DNA of 64,000 nucleotides from Eubacterium sp. (GTDB taxonomy: Bacteria > Bacillota > Clostridia > Lachnospirales > Lachnospiraceae), in contig JAFRHL010000037.1 of the NCBI GenBank assembly GCA_017433295.1, positions 1-64,000 of the forward strand, given 5' to 3'. The position numbers and the translations under genes are program-made. The notes under the pieces are model-generated. The model did not search any database. It was not told the origin of the DNA and saw only the letters and a list, made by a program, of their open reading frames with translations. Below are positions 2,963 through 14,635 of this stretch, piece after piece; the stretch's first letter is position 1, and each line of letters starts with the position of its first letter.

Positions 2963-3076
2963 ATGAAACAGATATCGAATAAGGAATATGAGAAATACCA
3001 GCAGTACCAGACCGACAAGCTGCATGGAGACAGAGAACCGTCCCCTGTCTCCTTCCTGTCTCCTAATTCTTCATAA
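2963..3076 (+). pseudogene. Small conserved-type protein, C-terminus replaced by the 27-bp repeat
   Basis: An excellent GGAGG site precedes ATG 2963. The first 22 residues (MKQISNKEYEKYQQYQTDK, then LHG) read like the start of a small clostridial protein family of about 60 residues. From codon 22, at base 3026, the reading frame is exactly the palindromic repeat (GDREPSPVS), followed by FLSPNSS and a stop at 3076. The normal C-terminal half is therefore missing. The last 14 bases overlap the convergent histidine kinase gene. Family membership is from memory; the abrupt junction with the repeat is seen directly. Confidence 0.5.
3026..3052 (+). repeat. 27-bp palindromic repeat, copy 1
   Basis: Arms GGAGACAG and CTGTCTCC enclose the 11-base loop AGAACCGTCCC. 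The right arm is echoed again at 3055-3062. The copy lies inside the truncated small gene, in its reading frame. The GGAG base of the stem is like that of REP elements mobilised by RAYT transposases, but no such gene is present here. Confidence 0.9.
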
Positions 3077-4382
3077 TCAGTGTGAAACGGAGTTTTCCTT
3101 CCCTGGTCTCGCCTGCTGTCAGGGTCCCATTGTTTTTTTCCGCAACGGACCGTGCGATGGCAAGTCCCAGTCCAAATCCGTTTTTGCCATCTGCATTGCT
3201 TCGTGACCGGTCTCCTCTGGTGAACCGGTCAAACATGGTTTCCAGCTTGTCCGGTTCTATGTTCCTTGCCCAGTCATTTTCTGTCTCAAAGAAGATCTTC
3301 CTTGCCTTCTGGTAAAGGCGGACCCGGATTACCTGATCTCCCCGGCTGTATTTGATGGCATTATCCATAAGGATGGAAAAGATCTGCCGGATCGAATTTT
3401 CATCGGCATGTACAGACAGGTCATTTTCGATATCGGATAGCAGATGCCTGCCGGCGGAGTTTGCAACAGGCCCATATAGTTCTACACACTCAATGGCTGC
3501 TTCGCTGATGGAAAAGGGTTCTATCATCAGAGCCGTTCCCTGCTCATCCATTTTTGAAAGGTAAACCAGACTGGTTACAAGATTTCTCAGCTTGCCGACC
3601 TGTTTTTTTGTTCCTTCTACCCACTCGTTTTGTCCCAGGTCCATAGTCAGGATATCCATGTTTGTGGCGATGACGGAGAGGGGTGTCTTCAGTTCATGAC
3701 CGGCATCTGTGATAAAACGTTTTTGTTTTTCCATGCTTTCTACCAGTGGTTGTATTGCTCTGTTGGATGTAAAAACGATAAAGAGGAAGGCAACCAGAGT
3801 TCCAAATAATCCAACGGCTATGGTGATCATCCACAGATCCGACAGGCTTCGGGCGTCTTCTGAACAGTCAAGTAATGAGATCATTTTTGTTCCCTTGTCA
3901 TCCGTCTGGATCTGATAGCGGTAATAATCCTGGTATCCAGTGCCTTTTCCGGCACGGAGGATTTTTGATGCTAGACGGTCAGCCTCTTCGTCGGTCATTA
4001 TGTCAGTATTACTGGAATAGAGATTGGTGGTGCCGTCTGAGTCCACTGTGATTACAAGAAACCGGCCGCCATATTGCATGATGGCAGAGCCGCGGCCTCC
4101 TTTAAAGCCTTTTCTTTTATGACCCTTTCCCCTTGACTGGAAGGGGGTGTTTTCCGTCATGTCTCCATAGGAATATCCGTCAGATTTTTCATCTTTATCG
4201 TCGGAGATATCCGAAAGATTTTGCAGGGTTTTCTCCTGCTGCTTCCGAACCTGCGCAAGGCGTAGAAGATTGATGGAAAGCACCAGGAGCAGGACGGCAA
4301 TAAATGTGGCCGCAGTCGCCCCCAGTATGAATTTTCTCCGGGCATTTTTTATCATTATATCCTGATGTGTACTGGTAATCAT
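3063..4382 (-). CDS. Membrane sensor histidine kinase
   Basis: A 439-residue kinase with TM1 at about 18-40, an extracytoplasmic loop of about 145 residues that is basic and glycine-rich in part (KGHKRKGFKGGRG), TM2 at about 186-208, a short linker, the DHp helix with the phospho-acceptor in DAGHELKTPLSVI, and a HATPase domain with DNAIKYS, FDRFTRGDRS and FGLGLAIAR. No clear HAMP domain is visible. It is the last gene of a leftward unit whose first genes are the double-cubane protein and its activase, and it follows its response regulator by 36 bases. The start is uncertain: ATG 4382 or the in-frame ATG nine codons later. Confidence 0.9.
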   Translation of the reverse strand: MITSTHQDIMIKNARRKFILGATAATFIAVLLLVLSINLLRLAQVRKQQEKTLQNLSDISDDKDEKSDGYSYGDMTENTPFQSRGKGHKRKGFKGGRGSAIMQYGGRFLVITVDSDGTTNLYSSNTDIMTDEEADRLASKILRAGKGTGYQDYYRYQIQTDDKGTKMISLLDCSEDARSLSDLWMITIAVGLFGTLVAFLFIVFTSNRAIQPLVESMEKQKRFITDAGHELKTPLSVIATNMDILTMDLGQNEWVEGTKKQVGKLRNLVTSLVYLSKMDEQGTALMIEPFSISEAAIECVELYGPVANSAGRHLLSDIENDLSVHADENSIRQIFSILMDNAIKYSRGDQVIRVRLYQKARKIFFETENDWARNIEPDKLETMFDRFTRGDRSRSNADGKNGFGLGLAIARSVAEKNNGTLTAGETREGKLRFTLIMKN

Positions 4383-4418: not shown

Positions 4419-5084
4419 TTATTCCATCACGTATCCGGCTCCGCGTACCATGCGGATATGAACATCGGAACCGATCTGGGAGAGTGCTTTGCGCAGCGTA
4501 GAGATATTCACCCATACCACATTGATCTCAGCTTCTGTATCCCATCCCCAGATATGAACCATCATTTTCTCTGCTGACAGGATGATTCCGGGAGAACGCA
4601 GGAACATTTCCGCCAGCTGAAAGGTTTTTTTAGAAAGCGCGGCCTGTTTTTTGCCGCAGGATAGCCGGTAGGTCGTGCAGTCGAGGGATATATCCCTGAA
4701 ATGCAGTATATCCGGTGTAAATTGCTGTGAACGGCGAAGCAGGGCACGGACCCGGGCGAGCAGTTCTCCGCCTGCAAAGGGCTTGGTCAGATAATCATCC
4801 GCACCTGCATCTAATCCATCGATCCGGTCTTCAATCTCATCCATGGCGGTAAGGAGCATCACAGGGATCCGGCAGCCTTCCTTCCGGATCCGGCGGACGA
4901 CTTCATCCCCGTTCATATCCGGCATCATGACATCGAGAATGGCTGCGTCATAATCCCCTTCCACGAGATATTCATAAGCATCTCTGCCATTATCCACCGC
5001 ATCGACCACATAATTACTCCTTTCCAGGAGCGTGACCACACCTCGGACAACGTCCGGATCATCTTCGGCAAATAAAAGTTTCAT
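4419..5084 (-). CDS. OmpR-family response regulator
   Basis: A 221-residue protein with an N-terminal receiver (acidic pair E7-D9, phospho-acceptor D51 in ILDVMMPDMNG, conserved Lys in DYLTKPF) and a C-terminal winged-helix DNA-binding domain (about 125-221, ending VRGAGYVME). AGGAGG lies seven bases before the ATG. Partner of the adjacent kinase. OmpR-type proteins bind direct repeats at a 10-11 bp period; exactly such repeats occur at 8071-8091 in the divergent promoter of this locus, so local control is a reasonable inference. Confidence 0.93.
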   Translation of the reverse strand: MKLLFAEDDPDVVRGVVTLLERSNYVVDAVDNGRDAYEYLVEGDYDAAILDVMMPDMNGDEVVRRIRKEGCRIPVMLLTAMDEIEDRIDGLDAGADDYLTKPFAGGELLARVRALLRRSQQFTPDILHFRDISLDCTTYRLSCGKKQAALSKKTFQLAEMFLRSPGIILSAEKMMVHIWGWDTEAEINVVWVNISTLRKALSQIGSDVHIRMVRGAGYVME

Positions 5085-5168: not shown

Positions 5169-5252
5169 GGAACAGTCTGTATTAAACGGCCGGGTTATTC
5201 CCGGCAAAGTTGGAACAGCCTGTATTAAGCAGCCAGAGTACTCCCGGCAAAG
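5169..5252. repeat. Tandem 43-bp duplication at the 3' end of the membrane protein gene
   Basis: Two imperfect copies start at 5169 and 5212 (period 43, about 80-85% identical by eye), each beginning GGAACAG and ending CCCGGCAAAG. The second copy encodes the last residues of the CcdA/TauE-like protein and its stop; the first is a non-coding duplicate just downstream of that stop. Confidence 0.7.
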
Positions 5253-5929
5253 CAGGACCAGGCAAAATATACGGCCACTACGATATAACAGGCAGCCCGG
5301 AACCAGTCGAGATATTTTGGAATCTCCTGGTATATCCGCACCGCAAGGATCCCGGACAGCAGGAGCAGGATCAGCATGGGAGAGATGGCACTTGCCATGG
5401 CAAAGACTGCCCCGACCATGGCTGCATTTGGGAAGGGTAAGGTTGCACAGTATCCGGCTATGAAAATCAGAGGGGCGCATGGTGTGATCCCATATCCCAG
5501 ACCCATAAAAAAGATGGCGGCTGTTCTCATCTTTGCAGGGCAGGCATCGTGCCCGGATGTGCCGGCGTGGTTACAGTGTGCACACTTCTTCCTTCCGGCT
5601 TTCTCTTTCCAGAGGTCATAAAGCAGCCATAATGCCATAGCCATCATACAGACATCAACGACTTTTATCAGAGGAACCTGCCCCATGTAACCTTCTTTGT
5701 CAAGCAAATGTTTTCCCGCAAAAGAAGATGCCAGGCAGATGGAAACGACAGCAATGATCTTTCCAAGATAAAAGGTCAGAAAGCCGGCAAAAGATTGCCG
5801 AAAGCTTCTGGCATGTGTCATCAGATATCCGGAAAGAAAGGCGCTGATCCCCGATCCGCAGCAGGTCCCGCATCCCACACCGACACTCCCTGCGGTAGCA
5901 ATGCCGGAGAGCATGATTTCCCATCCCAT
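5225..5929 (-). CDS. CcdA/TauE-like cysteine-rich membrane protein
   Basis: A 234-residue protein with six or so hydrophobic helices. TM1 carries VGCGTCCGSG and a central helix GYGITPCAP, placed like the paired reactive cysteines of the DsbD/CcdA and TauE/SafE-UreH superfamily. The cytoplasmic-looking middle loop is Cys/His-rich (KKCAHCNHAG, then GHDACPAK), unusual for these families. It starts three bases after the activase stop, with AAGGAGGG inside the activase end, so it is translationally coupled. Thiol or electron transfer across the membrane fits the redox neighbourhood; small-molecule export is the alternative. Confidence 0.7.
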   Translation of the reverse strand: MGWEIMLSGIATAGSVGVGCGTCCGSGISAFLSGYLMTHARSFRQSFAGFLTFYLGKIIAVVSICLASSFAGKHLLDKEGYMGQVPLIKVVDVCMMAMALWLLYDLWKEKAGRKKCAHCNHAGTSGHDACPAKMRTAAIFFMGLGYGITPCAPLIFIAGYCATLPFPNAAMVGAVFAMASAISPMLILLLLSGILAVRIYQEIPKYLDWFRAACYIVVAVYFAWSCFAGSTLAA

Positions 5930-6731: not shown

Positions 6732-8030
6732 TTAAACTCTGTGTTGTGCCGGTCCTTTTTGTAATTTGATCATTTCTATAAATGCTTCGATCCGGATCCG
6801 TAACTGTTCTATGTCTTCTTCGTTGTAGTCTGTTTCCAGCCGGATTACCGGGATCCCGAGTCTTCCAAGGTCTTCTTCGATCTGTTTGTATTCAAAATCA
6901 TAGACAAGGCATCCCCGGAGTACATGATAGACAAGGCCTTCGATCTGATAATCGCGGATCATCTGACGGATACGGTAGATCCTTTGTTTATTATCCGCAA
7001 ATGTAGGACAGGAGCAGGGGCGGATGGCGCGTACTGCCAGGGCCCGGACCAGTCCATCGAAGCTTTCGTCGGTGGGAACCACCGGGTCGGACATGCCCCG
7101 TTCTCCCATGCAGGTCTCATCAGCTGCAACTACTCCGCCCATTTCTTCAATCAGAAGAGGGATCTTAATATTAGGAAAAATGATGGGTGACCCTGTGATC
7201 ATTACACGGGGAAGCTGCCTTTTTGTAAATGGTTTTTTGAGCCGGACCCTTTTTTCAAGAGCATCATTTACTCCCCTGACCTGGTCTGCCCATATCCCTG
7301 CATTCATATAGGCGGCTGCATTCATCATGGCCATGCTGTGGGTTCCCCGCATCAGATAGGGCATTTGTTTTTTTAAGGAAAGGAATCGGGACAGTTCATA
7401 GGCTGCCTGCCCGGTCATACGAATGGCCCCGGCCAGAGAATCATAGCTGATCCTTTTCCCGGTCAGGTCTTCGAGTTTTTCCATAAAGAGGTAGAGTTCC
7501 TCAACATACTGCTCGATATCCTCATCTTCTTTCTTTACCGGTACATGAAGCACCACCAGCTCCCGTTCCCCGGACAGCATACCGGCGATCTTTTTTTTGC
7601 AGTCGCATGTAATGGGGACCACCATCAGCCGGCAATCACGATAAAGGGGCATGGTATCGGTGCTTTGGAAACCTTCCACCGCTTTCACCAGGGGGCAGGC
7701 ATCTCTGGGAACTTTGTCATCCCCCACAGAAAATGCGGTATAGCTGCCGCTGCATAGTTTAACAGGTTGTGCACCCGCCGCATAGACCAGCTCCTGGGGA
7801 GCCATCACACAATAGGTTCCGACCATCGGGATATCCTCCGGAATATCCAGTCTTTCCATTTTGGTATATACCTTGTCCAGTATGTCGAAAAACCGTGTCA
7901 TTTCTTCCGGCGCACCGCTTAATTCTTTCATCCTTCTTAAGTATCGGATGGAAGTATAGGATGATTTCCTTTGAAATCGCTCTTTCATCCGGGCTTCTTT
8001 ATCCGATGTCTTTCGATCTTTTTCTTCCAT
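6732..8030 (-). CDS. Double-cubane cluster protein (2-hydroxyacyl-CoA dehydratase D family)
   Basis: A 432-residue member of the HgdB/FldC superfamily. Ten cysteines are present (C74, C93, C112, C133, C142, C144, C307, C339, C341, C374), in blocks GTYCVMAPQE, RDACPLVK, PITCDCKKK, IRPCSCPTFADN and RGCLVYDFE. This richness and the single subunit with its own activase fit the double-cubane proteins, which bind an [8Fe-9S]-type cluster and reduce small molecules with ATP, better than a two-subunit dehydratase. No acyl-CoA transferase or second cysteine-bearing subunit is nearby. The substrate is unknown. First gene of the leftward unit, AGGAGG before the ATG. Confidence 0.85.
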   Translation of the reverse strand: MEEKDRKTSDKEARMKERFQRKSSYTSIRYLRRMKELSGAPEEMTRFFDILDKVYTKMERLDIPEDIPMVGTYCVMAPQELVYAAGAQPVKLCSGSYTAFSVGDDKVPRDACPLVKAVEGFQSTDTMPLYRDCRLMVVPITCDCKKKIAGMLSGERELVVLHVPVKKEDEDIEQYVEELYLFMEKLEDLTGKRISYDSLAGAIRMTGQAAYELSRFLSLKKQMPYLMRGTHSMAMMNAAAYMNAGIWADQVRGVNDALEKRVRLKKPFTKRQLPRVMITGSPIIFPNIKIPLLIEEMGGVVAADETCMGERGMSDPVVPTDESFDGLVRALAVRAIRPCSCPTFADNKQRIYRIRQMIRDYQIEGLVYHVLRGCLVYDFEYKQIEEDLGRLGIPVIRLETDYNEEDIEQLRIRIEAFIEMIKLQKGPAQHRV

Positions 8031-8070: not shown

Positions 8071-8091
8071 CAACTTAAAGCCAACTTAAAG
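8071..8091. promoter_or_regulatory. Direct repeats CAACTTAAAG at 11-bp period
   Basis: CAACTTAAAG occurs at 8071-8080 and 8082-8091, exactly one helical turn apart. It is followed by AATATATTTT, a possible -10 region for the rightward gene at 8187, and by a loosely inverted echo at about 8103-8115. OmpR-type regulators bind tandem repeats of this spacing, and the OmpR-type gene at 4419-5084 is the natural candidate. Confidence 0.5.
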
Positions 8092-8186: not shown

Positions 8187-9437
8187 ATGAATGACAAACA
8201 GGAACGATACAGGAAAGAGATCCTTTCCGGATTGGACCGGCTTTGGAAAGATAATGGCCGGATAAAAGCTTTTAAATATTTTGAGGATCTGGCATACAGG
8301 TCCCTGGTTTCAGAAATCTTCGGGGAGCCTGAACCGGATGTTGTTCTTCTCGGCACAGGGATACCGGAGGTTTTACTCCGGGCTTTCCCCATCAATTACA
8401 GATATATTACGGGTGGAAGCCATGCCATGACTGCCTGGTCCGATGACCTGGTGCCGAGGGACACGGATCCCGTCAGCCGTTCAATTCTGGGACAGATCCA
8501 TGCTCCGGGAATAATGGATTTAAGCCGGTCCCTTTTTCTTATTCCGATTCAATCGGACAGCATGCGCAAGATTGCCTTCCTTTTAAAAGAAGAGGGATAT
8601 CACACATTTACACTGGATATCCCGCCGGCTCGTGATGAAAGATCTGTCGGGGAATGGGAAAGACAGCTGGTCCTTATGGTGGAGGCAATCGCCGGACATG
8701 CTCATAAAAGAATATCTTTAGCCAGGATTAAAAAGGCGGCAAAGACAGTTACAGGTGCCCGATATCACTTAAACAGGTTTATTTCTGACACGGAAGACAG
8801 GGGTCAGGGTATCAGCGGGGCAGGGAAAATGCTCATCAGAAACAGCTTCTATTATGCCGACGATCTTGAAGAATGGACCTACCATCTGAAAGTCCTTGGG
8901 TGGGAAATAGAACATTCAGCTTCCAGATACAGACAGGATGTCCGGCCGGGGATCCTGCTGACCGGTTCGCCGATCCTTTTCCCCAACTATAAGATCCCTT
9001 TCCTGATTGAAGATGTGGGAATGAGAATCCGGGACTTTATAGATCCATCCACCGTAAGACAGGAGGAGTTTTTATCCACGAAGGGGATACATGGGACAAA
9101 AAACGCAATGCATGCAATCGCAGCTTCCTCCTATAAATATGATGCGTCTCCCGCATACACCTGTAATGAAGCATTGATGACTGCAATCCACGGGTCGATT
9201 CGGGACGGGAAGATAGAAGGAGTCATCTTTCATATATTGAAGGGTCAGATTGAATATGATTTTGAACTGGAACGTATGACGGAGATGTTCGAATCTTATG
9301 ATATACCTGTATTCCGGCTTGAGACGGATTTTCAGGACCAGGATATAGAGCAGCTGCGGATCCGCCTGGAAGCATTTTGTGAGATGCTGTCCCAGAAACA
9401 TTGTATGCAGGGTAAGAGGATCGTGCAGGCATCCTGA
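8187..9437 (+). CDS. Double-cubane-family paralogue lacking all cluster cysteines
   Basis: A 416-residue protein clearly related to the divergent neighbour: shared blocks TGSPI-FPN-KIP, the YDFE motif, IPV-RLETD and DIEQLRIR-EAF align with a constant offset of about 20 residues. At the aligned positions every cysteine is replaced: C74 to I59, C93 to T75, C112 to D94, C142 and C144 to S123 and S125, C339 and C341 to D319 and S321, C374 to Q354. Its only cysteines (326, 398, 406) lie elsewhere. It is full length with a good GGAGG site, so it looks like a maintained protein. It probably cannot hold the cluster; a scaffold, sensor or heterodimer role is inference. It leads a three-gene unit. Confidence 0.82.
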   Translation: MNDKQERYRKEILSGLDRLWKDNGRIKAFKYFEDLAYRSLVSEIFGEPEPDVVLLGTGIPEVLLRAFPINYRYITGGSHAMTAWSDDLVPRDTDPVSRSILGQIHAPGIMDLSRSLFLIPIQSDSMRKIAFLLKEEGYHTFTLDIPPARDERSVGEWERQLVLMVEAIAGHAHKRISLARIKKAAKTVTGARYHLNRFISDTEDRGQGISGAGKMLIRNSFYYADDLEEWTYHLKVLGWEIEHSASRYRQDVRPGILLTGSPILFPNYKIPFLIEDVGMRIRDFIDPSTVRQEEFLSTKGIHGTKNAMHAIAASSYKYDASPAYTCNEALMTAIHGSIRDGKIEGVIFHILKGQIEYDFELERMTEMFESYDIPVFRLETDFQDQDIEQLRIRLEAFCEMLSQKHCMQGKRIVQAS

Positions 9438-11220: not shown

Positions 11221-11592
11221 ATGAAGAAGATTTATACGGAAAAAGCGCCTGCGGCAGTGGGACCCTACTCGCAGGCGGTTGTAACAGGCGGGATAGTTTA
11301 TACATCAGGCCAGATTGCTCTGGATCCTGTCTCGGGAGAACTTGTCGGGACTACCATTGAAGAGCAGGCGGACCAGGTCATGAAGAATCTGGTATCCATA
11401 CTTGAGGCAGCCGGGACGAAACCGGAAAATGCGGTAAAGACCCTCTGCTTCCTCACTGACATCAGTGATTTCGCTGCATTTAACGAAGTGTACGCGAGAT
11501 ACTTTACCGAAAAACCAGCCAGGTCCTGTGTGGGCGTTCAGGCACTGCCCAAAGGTGCCCTCTGTGAAGTGGAGGTTATAGCTGCGCTTTAG
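11221..11592 (+). CDS. ridA: RidA family enamine/imine deaminase
   Basis: A 123-residue protein of exactly family length. It has the N-terminal GPYSQAV, SGQIALDP in the middle, and the C-terminal ARSCVGVQALPKGALCEVE, with the arginine that binds the substrate carboxylate and the catalytic-site glutamate. RidA hydrolyses reactive 2-aminoacrylate-type enamines released by PLP enzymes. GAAGGGAG lies at proper distance before the ATG. It stands alone behind a strong hairpin. Confidence 0.95.
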   Translation: MKKIYTEKAPAAVGPYSQAVVTGGIVYTSGQIALDPVSGELVGTTIEEQADQVMKNLVSILEAAGTKPENAVKTLCFLTDISDFAAFNEVYARYFTEKPARSCVGVQALPKGALCEVEVIAAL

Positions 11593-12898
11593 CCCTTGCT
11601 GCGCATTTTATCTTCATACATGGCTTTGTCGGCTCTCTGAAAGACTCTGTTTGCATCGTCATCGACTGCCGGATCGAATACGGCATAGCCTATGGCTGCA
11701 CTTATCTTGAGCCATGGTTCGTCCCCTTCCCTGTTCCTCTGTGCTTTCAGGTCGTCCCGGAAGCGTCTTACCAGAGAATCGATCTGCTCAAGATCGTGAT
11801 CTTTCAGTATTACGGCGAACTCATCGCCGCCGTATCTGTAGACGGGGGACCGCTGTCTCATAGGAGCGCTTGTTCTTGACGCCGGTAAGAGGATCCTTGT
11901 TTGCGCTGCGGGCCATTTCCTCCGCATATTCCCTGGTGTTGGTGAGCTCACGTTTTGTTGAGAGCAGAGCCTTGATGTGGTCATCAATATCCTTCTCCAT
12001 TTTCGCCATGGATTCTGCAAGGGTTTCAATCTCATCTCCGGTATGGATGTTCAGATTAGAAAAGCTGTTTACTTTATCTGTCATTTCCGGGTCAGTGGAA
12101 TAAAAACGGACGGACGCGTCAGATAATGCGTTTATGGGCTTTACGATCGACCGGTCGACCAGTCTGATCACAACAAATGCCGAAATGGCGGAGAGCAGAG
12201 CGATCATGATTATGGAAACGATAAGGAAATGACGCTGGTTCTCCAGAAGACTCTCGATAGAATAGTCCAGGCCGGCATAGGCGATCACACGATGATTTGA
12301 CCCATATATGGGCATAGCCGTGGTTACCAGTTTGTTTCCATCCTCGGTGTCGCTCATCAGTGAGCCGAAGCCGGAATCAATATTGCCCTTTTCTCTGAAA
12401 TCTGTGTCATACAATACTTCCAGAGTGCCGGGCTCCCATATGTCCTCATGGGCCCCATCAACGAGATACACGATCCGGTGTGTTTCTTTATCCGGGAAAA
12501 TAATATACAGGCACTCAACGTGGGCAACGTCCTGAGAGCGTCTGAGGGCATCGCGCAGGGAGATGAATTCTTCCATATCCTTCACATGAGCATAATGAGC
12601 AAGATAATCCTTGTATCCGGCTTCGCCTTCCTGGTTGCTCAGCAGGCATTTCTGACGGATTCAGACTCCGGTAAATGCCCATGACCTCCCTGCTGACAGC
12701 CTCCACCTGGGACACATTAAGAGAACCGGCCACGGTGCTGGAAATGTCTGAGCAATGGATCACATACTCTGAGCGCGCAATGTCGAGTGCTCCTTTGTAG
12801 AACAAAGAAACACTGGCGATCCCTACTATAGCAAAGGCCGCTATCATAACGAGCATTGTTTTCTTTTTCAGTGAATTCTTTTGTTTTTTCTCAGTCAT
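11589..12898 (-). pseudogene. Broken diguanylate cyclase (frameshift plus internal deletion)
   Basis: Three overlapping frames together spell a membrane GGDEF protein: N-terminal helix and sensor start (MTEKKQKNS onwards, from 12898), the rest of the sensor, a second TM segment and a HAMP-like region (to NKDPLTGVKNKRSYE), then YRYGGDEFAVIL to the end. A one-base shift near 12660 breaks the sensor. Near 11850 the sequence jumps from KNKRSYE to RSPVYRYGGDEF in another frame; roughly 60-65 codons of the cyclase core, including the metal-binding Asp region, are gone. It cannot make an active enzyme. Its start overlaps the stop of the nicotinamidase-like gene by four bases, so the two were once coupled. 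Confidence 0.85.
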
Positions 12899-14287: not shown

Positions 14288-14635
14288 TTGGGCTATGGCT
14301 TCGCTCTGGATGATTATGGTGTCGGTTATTCCAGTATCTATCGGGTCAACCATATTATGCTGAGTGTCATCAAAATCGACAAAAGTATGCTGGATGAGAT
14401 TTCATCCAATAATGGACGGAAGATCCTTGAATATACTATCCGCATGATGCAGAGCATCGGCAAGCAGCTGGTAGCTGAGGGCGCGGAGACCGAATATGAG
14501 GTTGGTATTCTGGAAAATATGGGTTGTGATTATATCCAGGGCTTCTATTTCTCCCGGCCCCTGCCTGAGGACGAGTTTATCCGCTATATTAAGGAACAGA
14601 ACGGATCCGGAGTAAGGGTGACAGGGCAGGCCTGA
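14288..14635 (+). pseudogene. C-terminal fragment of an EAL phosphodiesterase
   Basis: From the first codon after the repeat the frame reads GYGFALDDYGVGYSS, the DDFGTGYSS-type motif of EAL domains, then LVAEGAETEYEV and GCDYIQGFYFSRPLPEDEF, the domain's end. The N-terminal half of the domain, including the EAL signature and the first metal ligands, is absent, and no ribosome-binding site precedes the only possible start, a TTG inside the junction. It is a decayed gene beheaded at the repeat. Confidence 0.8.

Follow-up and report, generated by a model that had tools for sequence, protein, structure and literature searches.

The locus and its genes

The DNA analysed here, a stretch of 64,000 nucleotides from Eubacterium sp. 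that we refer to as the window, contains a gene, X, surrounded by the genes N, 4C, D, A and T and by genes for a response regulator and a sensor histidine kinase (Table 1).

Table 1. Features of the window around X, with their positions and the basis on which each was named.
Feature	Description	Position	Strand	Basis
Sensor histidine kinase		3063..4382	-	ORF; named by eye
Response regulator	Downstream of T	4419..5084	-	ORF; named by eye
T	DsbD_2 (CcdA/DsbD-like) membrane protein, 234 aa, 7 conserved Cys	5225..5929	-	Pfam match of relatives
A	Activase, BadF/HgdC-type ATPase, 262 aa	5932..6720	-	PF01869 E 1.1e-53; TIGR00241 226.5 bits (cut-off 125.4)
D	Double-cubane-type protein, 432 aa, six ligand Cys	6732..8030	-	NF040772 321 bits; PDB match
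Direct repeat	Perfect 10-bp repeat CAACTTAAAG x2, 11 bp apart, between the divergent D and X	8071..8091		Repeat search
X	Predicted cluster-free HGD-D/DCCP paralogue, 416 aa	8187..9437	+	Pfam, alignment to D, ligand columns, tree
N	NapH-like membrane Fe-S protein, Fer4_5 and C-terminal [4Fe-4S] motifs, 395 aa	9473..10660	+	Pfam/NCBIfam
4C	N-terminal hydrophobic segment, acidic linker, C-terminal C-x2-C-x3-C-x7-C, 146 aa	10657..11097	+	Translation
GGDEF-type gene	Three overlapping ORFs in different frames, possibly a frameshifted gene	11589..12898	-	Named by eye
Short ORF	Looks like just the C-terminal part of an EAL domain	14288..14635	+	By eye

X is an intact open reading frame of 416 codons that starts with ATG, encodes three cysteines and has a Shine-Dalgarno-like ggaggtgg directly 5′ of its start, in agreement with an earlier note on this DNA that had described the gene as intact and provided with a good ribosome-binding site. 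Both X and D pass the gathering cut-off (28.4) of the Pfam family HGD-D (PF06050), X with 138 bits (E 7.5e-40) and D with 286 bits. Pairwise BLAST aligns the two proteins with 30% identity over 379 positions (E 2e-46). Among PDB structures, X matches the DCCPs 7yyl (E 3.6e-17) and 6eno (E 5.7e-17), and D matches the same two with E about 1e-61. At the level of sequence, the view that X is full-length and keeps the fold of the family is borne out. On the DCCP equivalog model NF040772, X scores 120.6 bits and D 321.3 bits, both below the cut-off of 350, and X was ruled out as a member of that equivalog.

The membrane protein N has 18 columns with at least 80% Cys in an alignment of 73 sequences. 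Its match to the NapH model TIGR02163 reaches 75.4 bits against a cut-off of 213, on which ground N was rejected as a NapH quinol dehydrogenase ferredoxin subunit; the NosR and CcoG models also matched weakly. Where the N match reaches 150 bits or more (76 loci), N is 580 aa or longer in 24 cases and then has an extra N-terminal region. As to T, six of the nine members of its alignment match DsbD_2 (PF13386; best E 1.4e-10), the window T not being one of them, and the seven cysteines are conserved among 61 sequences. The relatives of 4C share the C-x2-C-x3-C-x7-C end and have a variable linker, either acidic or Ser/Thr-rich. 4C matches no Pfam or NCBIfam family at E 0.001 and, judging by eye, is probably exported. 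An NCBIfam search of T, 4C and the ectodomains of N gave matches below the cut-offs only.

Regulators near the core genes vary by locus. Among the 80 loci of X relatives described below, LysR is found near the core in 20, while a relative of the response regulator is at most two genes away from a core gene in 13 loci and a relative of the histidine kinase in 9. The repeat between D and X is a candidate response-regulator box; a similar phased CTTAA repeat adjoins X in another locus (L034), whose operon also has a response regulator.

Ligand columns of X and D

The ligands of the [8Fe-9S] cluster of BzdN are given as Cys36, Cys73, Cys100, Cys263, Cys293 and Cys327 in PMC11971306. We defined the ligand columns from BzdN and mapped them by alignment onto D and X. 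The BzdN ligands align to C74, C112, C142, C307, C341 and C374 of D, which therefore has six of the six DCCP cysteines, and to G56, D94, S123, P287, S321 and Q354 of X, which has none (pairwise BLAST of X and D sets I59, not G56, opposite C74). The earlier note had claimed that every cluster cysteine of X is replaced, and this is what the ligand columns give. Its list of residues fared less well: five of the ligands were right, C307 was missed, and C93, C144 and C339 were added, although these align with no BzdN ligand. It had also named leftover cysteines at ligand positions as one observation that would speak against it; none of the three in the window X lies at a ligand column.

The same picture is found in the family. 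Among 81 X sequences (80 fetched relatives and the window), the C74 column is G in 80, the C112 column D in all 81, the C341 column S in 78 and the C374 column Q in all 81, while the C142 column has S, N or C in 41, 26 and 11 sequences respectively, and the C307 column is mixed, with three Cys. No ligand cysteine is left in 67 of the 81 proteins and a single one in the other 14. All six are present in 63 of 64 D sequences, the remaining one having five and a gap at C374; this D count covers 63 of the 80 loci, and in the other 17 D is missing, truncated at the end of a contig or split into pieces shorter than 370 aa. One of the two peptide patterns used in the scan for relatives contained a KGQI motif, so that the conservation of Q354 was partly selected by the search; neither pattern included D94 or G56. 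Q occupies the C374 column also in 10/10 members that matched solely the pattern without KGQI and in 9/9 X rows of another set, made up of the window and eight proteins obtained by protein search. G56, D94 and Q354 are kept in all 25 rows of X and of its divergent relatives X′ (see below).

X proteins are not cysteine-free as such, since the total per protein, as called, ranges from 2 to 15. At any one column Cys is present in at most 26 of the 81 members, and thus no three-Cys catalytic [4Fe-4S] site is apparent in X. We rejected the three leftover cysteines of the window X as metal ligands, because they occupy no ligand column and are not among the columns with Cys in at least 8 of the 81 members.

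D has further cysteines besides its ligands. C93 is Cys in 23/23 D, 3/3 D′ (the D of the X′ operons), 47/47 other DCCP-like and 5/5 HgdB-like rows. C133 is found in 23/23 D and 3/3 D′ but in 9/47 other DCCP-like rows. C339 is likewise Cys in 23/23 D and 3/3 D′, and mostly Ile in the 47 other DCCP-like rows. C144 is Cys in 23/23 D and 0/3 D′, with Gly in 45 of the 47 other rows. C144 and C339 each lie two residues from a ligand, C142 and C341 respectively.

Distribution and conservation

Contigs of GTDB species were scanned with a nine-member X profile and with the patterns derived from it. The scan found 112 X relatives, of which the best 80 were fetched. These belong to Lachnospiraceae, Oscillospiraceae, Acetobacterium and Coriobacteriia, and include Ruminococcus (among them R. 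albus KH2T6), Eubacteriaceae, Anaeromicropila populeti 743A, Coriobacteriaceae and Atopobiaceae; within Acetobacterium, X was found in A. fimetarium, in A. wieringae DSM 1911 and in a metagenome-assembled genome called A. woodii. By their record titles, they span two phyla. In 397 genomes of the same family as the window, X-type matches (E at most 1e-70) occur in nine genomes and D-type matches (E at most 1e-100) in nine, eight of which are shared. Both non-shared genomes have truncated contigs: in G332 the contig with X ends inside N, and in G076 D lies on a 6.2 kb contig that ends inside N. G332 also has a 69-residue X-like fragment on a separate contig.

The X reading frame is at least 392 aa long in all 80 named loci. 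An alignment of 79 of the 81 sequences (L102 and L144 were omitted) has 36 invariant columns, and dN/dS for the 25 closest of 78 pairs is 0.09–0.33. X is under purifying selection, and the earlier statement that the gene is not simply decaying stands on these values. In one order-level genome (G537; locus L160, 8236-9237), X has an in-frame TAG inside the profile match, which leaves an ORF of 333 aa. Judged from the sequences, the window X is not a one-off but a member of a conserved family of DCCP paralogues predicted to be cluster-free.

Operon organisation

Gene order was counted in the 49 of the 80 loci that have at least 6 kb downstream of X, with gene pieces counted as present and the other 31 excluded. 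N is present in all 49 of these long loci, D and A in 48 each and T in 47, and the exact order X-N-D-A-T is found in 46. The exceptions are L091, where T was not detected, L154, where N is in two ORFs, and L137. In L137 (8977-19125), a short piece of N comes after X; the genes beyond it are of other kinds, a recombinase among them, and D is not found on the DNA fetched. A mobile element may have been inserted into this operon. L038/L158 (one record) and L039 have the order N-D-A-T-X-N′, in which N is in two parts and X precedes the N-terminal one.

The operon is usually collinear on one strand. The divergent form, with X-N-4C on one strand and D-A-T on the other, was seen in the window and, among the 80 loci, in L081 only. 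Genes often overlap: X-N junctions overlap by 1–20 bases in 59/73 loci, compared with 29/68 for N-D, 12/63 for D-A and 34/59 for A-T.

These counts bear on the question, raised in the earlier note, of whether X-type members always sit next to a cysteine-rich copy, a NapH-like gene and a four-cysteine gene. D (whole or in pieces) and the NapH-like gene accompany X in 48/49 long loci. For the four-cysteine gene the constancy is lower, 4C-like proteins being found in 31 to 34 of the 80 loci, many of whose contigs end early. Beyond what had been noted, the activase and DsbD_2 genes are nearly as constant (48/49 and 47/49), and X, D and A occur together in 48/49 long loci.

Outside the core, neighbours are far from constant. 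Among the 40 largest neighbour families, known by their sequence starts, none is present in more than 21 of the 80 loci, the most frequent being LysR (21) and two unannotated families (19 and 18). In consequence, no constant catabolic pathway is apparent, and a fixed catabolic partner was rejected. Some loci have genes related to metals. In the order-level locus L161 (1743-15878), X-N-D-A-T-4C is flanked by FeoB-like, DUF4198, large lipoprotein and iron-dependent-repressor-type genes, which suggests a metal-uptake regulon, and FeoB-like genes adjoin 4C in L094 and L095. By eye and from sequence starts, in the loci listed up to L131, L110 has a copper-ATPase-like ORF beyond the operon, and L122 has zinc-ABC-like ORFs upstream of it. 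Because FeoB-like genes occur in 3 of 85 loci (80 named and 5 order-level), metal uptake as a function is a lead only.

Origin of X

A tree of 70 rows chosen for spread was built with IQ-TREE under a profile-mixture model. It comprised 22 X, 3 X′, 23 D, 3 D′, 14 other DCCP-like and 5 HgdB-like rows, where the last two labels were assigned by profile score rather than by family search. The X′ and D′ rows were taken from three genomes (L162–L164) that belong to a different family of the order and whose deeply divergent operon reads X′, one or two small proteins, N, D′, A and T. In X′ the C74, C112 and C374 columns read G, D and Q; the C307 column is Cys in 3/3 sequences, and the other five ligand cysteines are missing.

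X and X′ form one clade (support 100/100), which answers in the affirmative the question of whether members without the ligand cysteines group together; X without X′ is monophyletic in 52% of 200 bootstrap trees. X, X′, D and D′ are jointly split from the 14 other DCCP-like rows (100/100), a result from which we read a common origin of X and D. The group of D and D′ is weak (85/60). Long branches meet in the tree, for which reason X and D are less securely placed as sisters than X and X′ are as a clade.

The members of the operon diverge to different extents, with mean distances of 0.96 for X, 0.93 for T, 0.81 for N and 0.53 for D. Partial correlations of the distance matrices with that of X over 55 loci are 0.43 for D, 0.25 for A, 0.09 for N and −0.04 for T, values that mildly favour D as the partner of X, although such correlations are weak evidence.

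What might a DCCP paralogue predicted to be cluster-free do?

In the reading that we hold most likely, and to which we give an even chance, X would be the subunit without a cluster in an X:D heterodimer: a neofunctionalised duplicate of D that works in an ATP-driven, membrane-coupled reductase. X would have arisen from the D of its own operon and kept the fold, while its cluster cavity would have become a conserved polar pocket, with Gly, Asp, Ser and Gln at the old ligand sites. X and D would then pair as the homologous subunits of HadBC/HgdAB and BzdNO do. Activase A would deliver ATP-energised single electrons to a presumed double cubane of D, and X, taking the place of the second cluster-bearing subunit, would bind the substrate or a partner. 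N and T might serve as electron and thiol conduits that link the X/D unit to the membrane. So conceived, X:D would be a further step on the DCCP-to-BzdNO/HAD route of subunit specialisation. A more specific version, which we regard as possible but tentative, is an ATP-driven transmembrane reductase in which super-reduced electrons from A and D are gated by X or passed through it to N, and in which the DsbD_2 protein and 4C form an outer thiol relay; its target would perhaps be an extracellular metal complex or another hard-to-reduce compound.

The pairing of X with D is favoured by their joint occurrence in 48/49 long loci and by the eight genomes shared among the nine with X-type and the nine with D-type matches. 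The clades of the tree, the fixed replacements at four of the six ligand columns, the dN/dS values, the distance correlation of X with D and the heterodimer of homologous subunits in HAD also count in favour of this reading. Several observations speak against it. X diverges more than D, 14/81 X proteins keep one ligand cysteine, and the known heterodimers described in PMC11971306 and PMC11574389 carry a cluster in both subunits. In addition, the coupling of X at gene level is to N and not to D (59/73 X-N junctions overlap), and in split operons X is found together with N and 4C, and D with A and T. These last points are what an adaptor would lead one to expect: X would dock the unit of D and activase onto the NapH-like N, so that low-potential electrons are exchanged between cytosol and membrane, and D would be a homodimer. 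X remains with N in both split operons (the window and L081) and precedes the N-terminal part of N in L039 and L038/L158. Nevertheless, the distances of X correlate with those of N much less than with those of D, and adjacency of genes alone is no proof of contact, so that we hold an adaptor to be unlikely.

X could also act on its own, as a separate cytosolic protein that binds a substrate, or as a carrier or sensor (of a metal ion or a small anion, for example), and forms no stable complex with D. New residues fixed at three of the old ligand sites in 25/25 X and X′ rows fit such a binder, as do the metal-related neighbours in L161, L094 and L095. The FeoB-like genes among these neighbours are confined to 3/85 loci, however, and the strict co-occurrence of X with D suggests a joint machine; a separate binder thus appears quite unlikely. 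That X is a paralogue encoded alongside D recalls NifEN, the nitrogenase scaffold that is a paralogue of its enzyme, and would suit a factor that assembles or protects the [8Fe-9S] cluster of D. We consider this improbable: X has no conserved cluster-ligating cysteine, and in 103 of 398 genomes, that of the window left aside, the X profile finds HGD-D proteins, none of them with an X-type score (best E 1.7e-51 vs 4.9e-180), so that related proteins evidently manage without X. Finally, the greater divergence of X relative to D and the interrupted X of L160 could be taken as signs of a decaying paralogue that hitchhikes in the operon. The full length of the reading frame in every named locus, its invariant columns, the dN/dS values and the presence of X in two phyla make decay extremely unlikely, and on conservation and dN/dS we rejected it.

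Significance

We recognised no description of this operon in the open-licence literature searched, most of it at the level of listings. The accessible part of a paper on the MCR activation complex draws no link to HGD-D proteins. A DCCP paralogue that to all appearance lacks a cluster, encoded in a near-fixed and membrane-linked operon, is a broader finding than the earlier note had put forward, with a mechanism that is so far our reconstruction. In this operon a DCCP-type protein comes with partners that hardly vary (46/49 long loci), which makes the function of that protein genetically and biochemically testable. The 112 relatives in GTDB species include the named strains Ruminococcus albus KH2T6, Acetobacterium wieringae DSM 1911 and Anaeromicropila populeti 743A. 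X would extend the proposed series of cluster losses to a subunit with no cluster at all, and its remodelled cavity should reveal what a cluster site can become. With two membrane proteins among the partners, a link between electron activation driven by ATP and the cell envelope seems possible. If the transmembrane reductase proved true, X would become the first known case of an HGD-D subunit that functions without a metal cluster.

Comparison with known systems

According to PMC11971306, DCCPs form homodimers in which each subunit bears a cluster; they are called there the archetypes of the BCR/HAD family and their biological function is stated to be unknown. DCCP (6eno, 7yyl, NF040772) and the system described here have in common the family to which X and D belong, the co-encoded activase and the six ligand positions, which D retains. 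What sets the present operon apart is that it also codes for a paralogue that is putatively cluster-free and for two membrane proteins.

The membrane ferredoxins NapH, CcoG and NosR resemble N in its weak model matches and its ferredoxin motifs, and DsbD_2 proteins resemble T through the relatives of T that match this family. Unlike NapH, N falls far under the cut-off and is tied to an ATP-driven HGD-D system. We know of no other pairing of a NapH-type protein with such a system and, to our knowledge, NapH-like and DsbD_2 proteins are no part of HAD. HAD (HadBC/HgdAB, 3o3m) is like X and D in having a pair of homologous HGD-D subunits with an activase. Its component D is a heterodimer of homologous subunits, each with a [4Fe-4S]-type cluster (PMC11574389); both subunits thus bear clusters, whereas X has no set of ligand cysteines.

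Class I benzoyl-CoA reductase BzdNO (8s02) likewise combines two homologous HGD-D subunits with a BadF-type activase, and DCCP, BzdNO and HAD are all served by ATP-using activases (PMC11971306 and PMC11574389). It differs from the present system in that BzdO has a catalytic [4Fe-4S] cluster on three cysteines and X has no conserved cysteine, and in that no constant catabolic neighbours are apparent in the X loci (no non-core family in more than 21/80). The BzdNO pair may itself stem from the duplication of a DCCP-like ancestor followed by partial loss of the cluster, as proposed in PMC11971306, and X would be a case in which, within one subunit, the loss has gone to completion.
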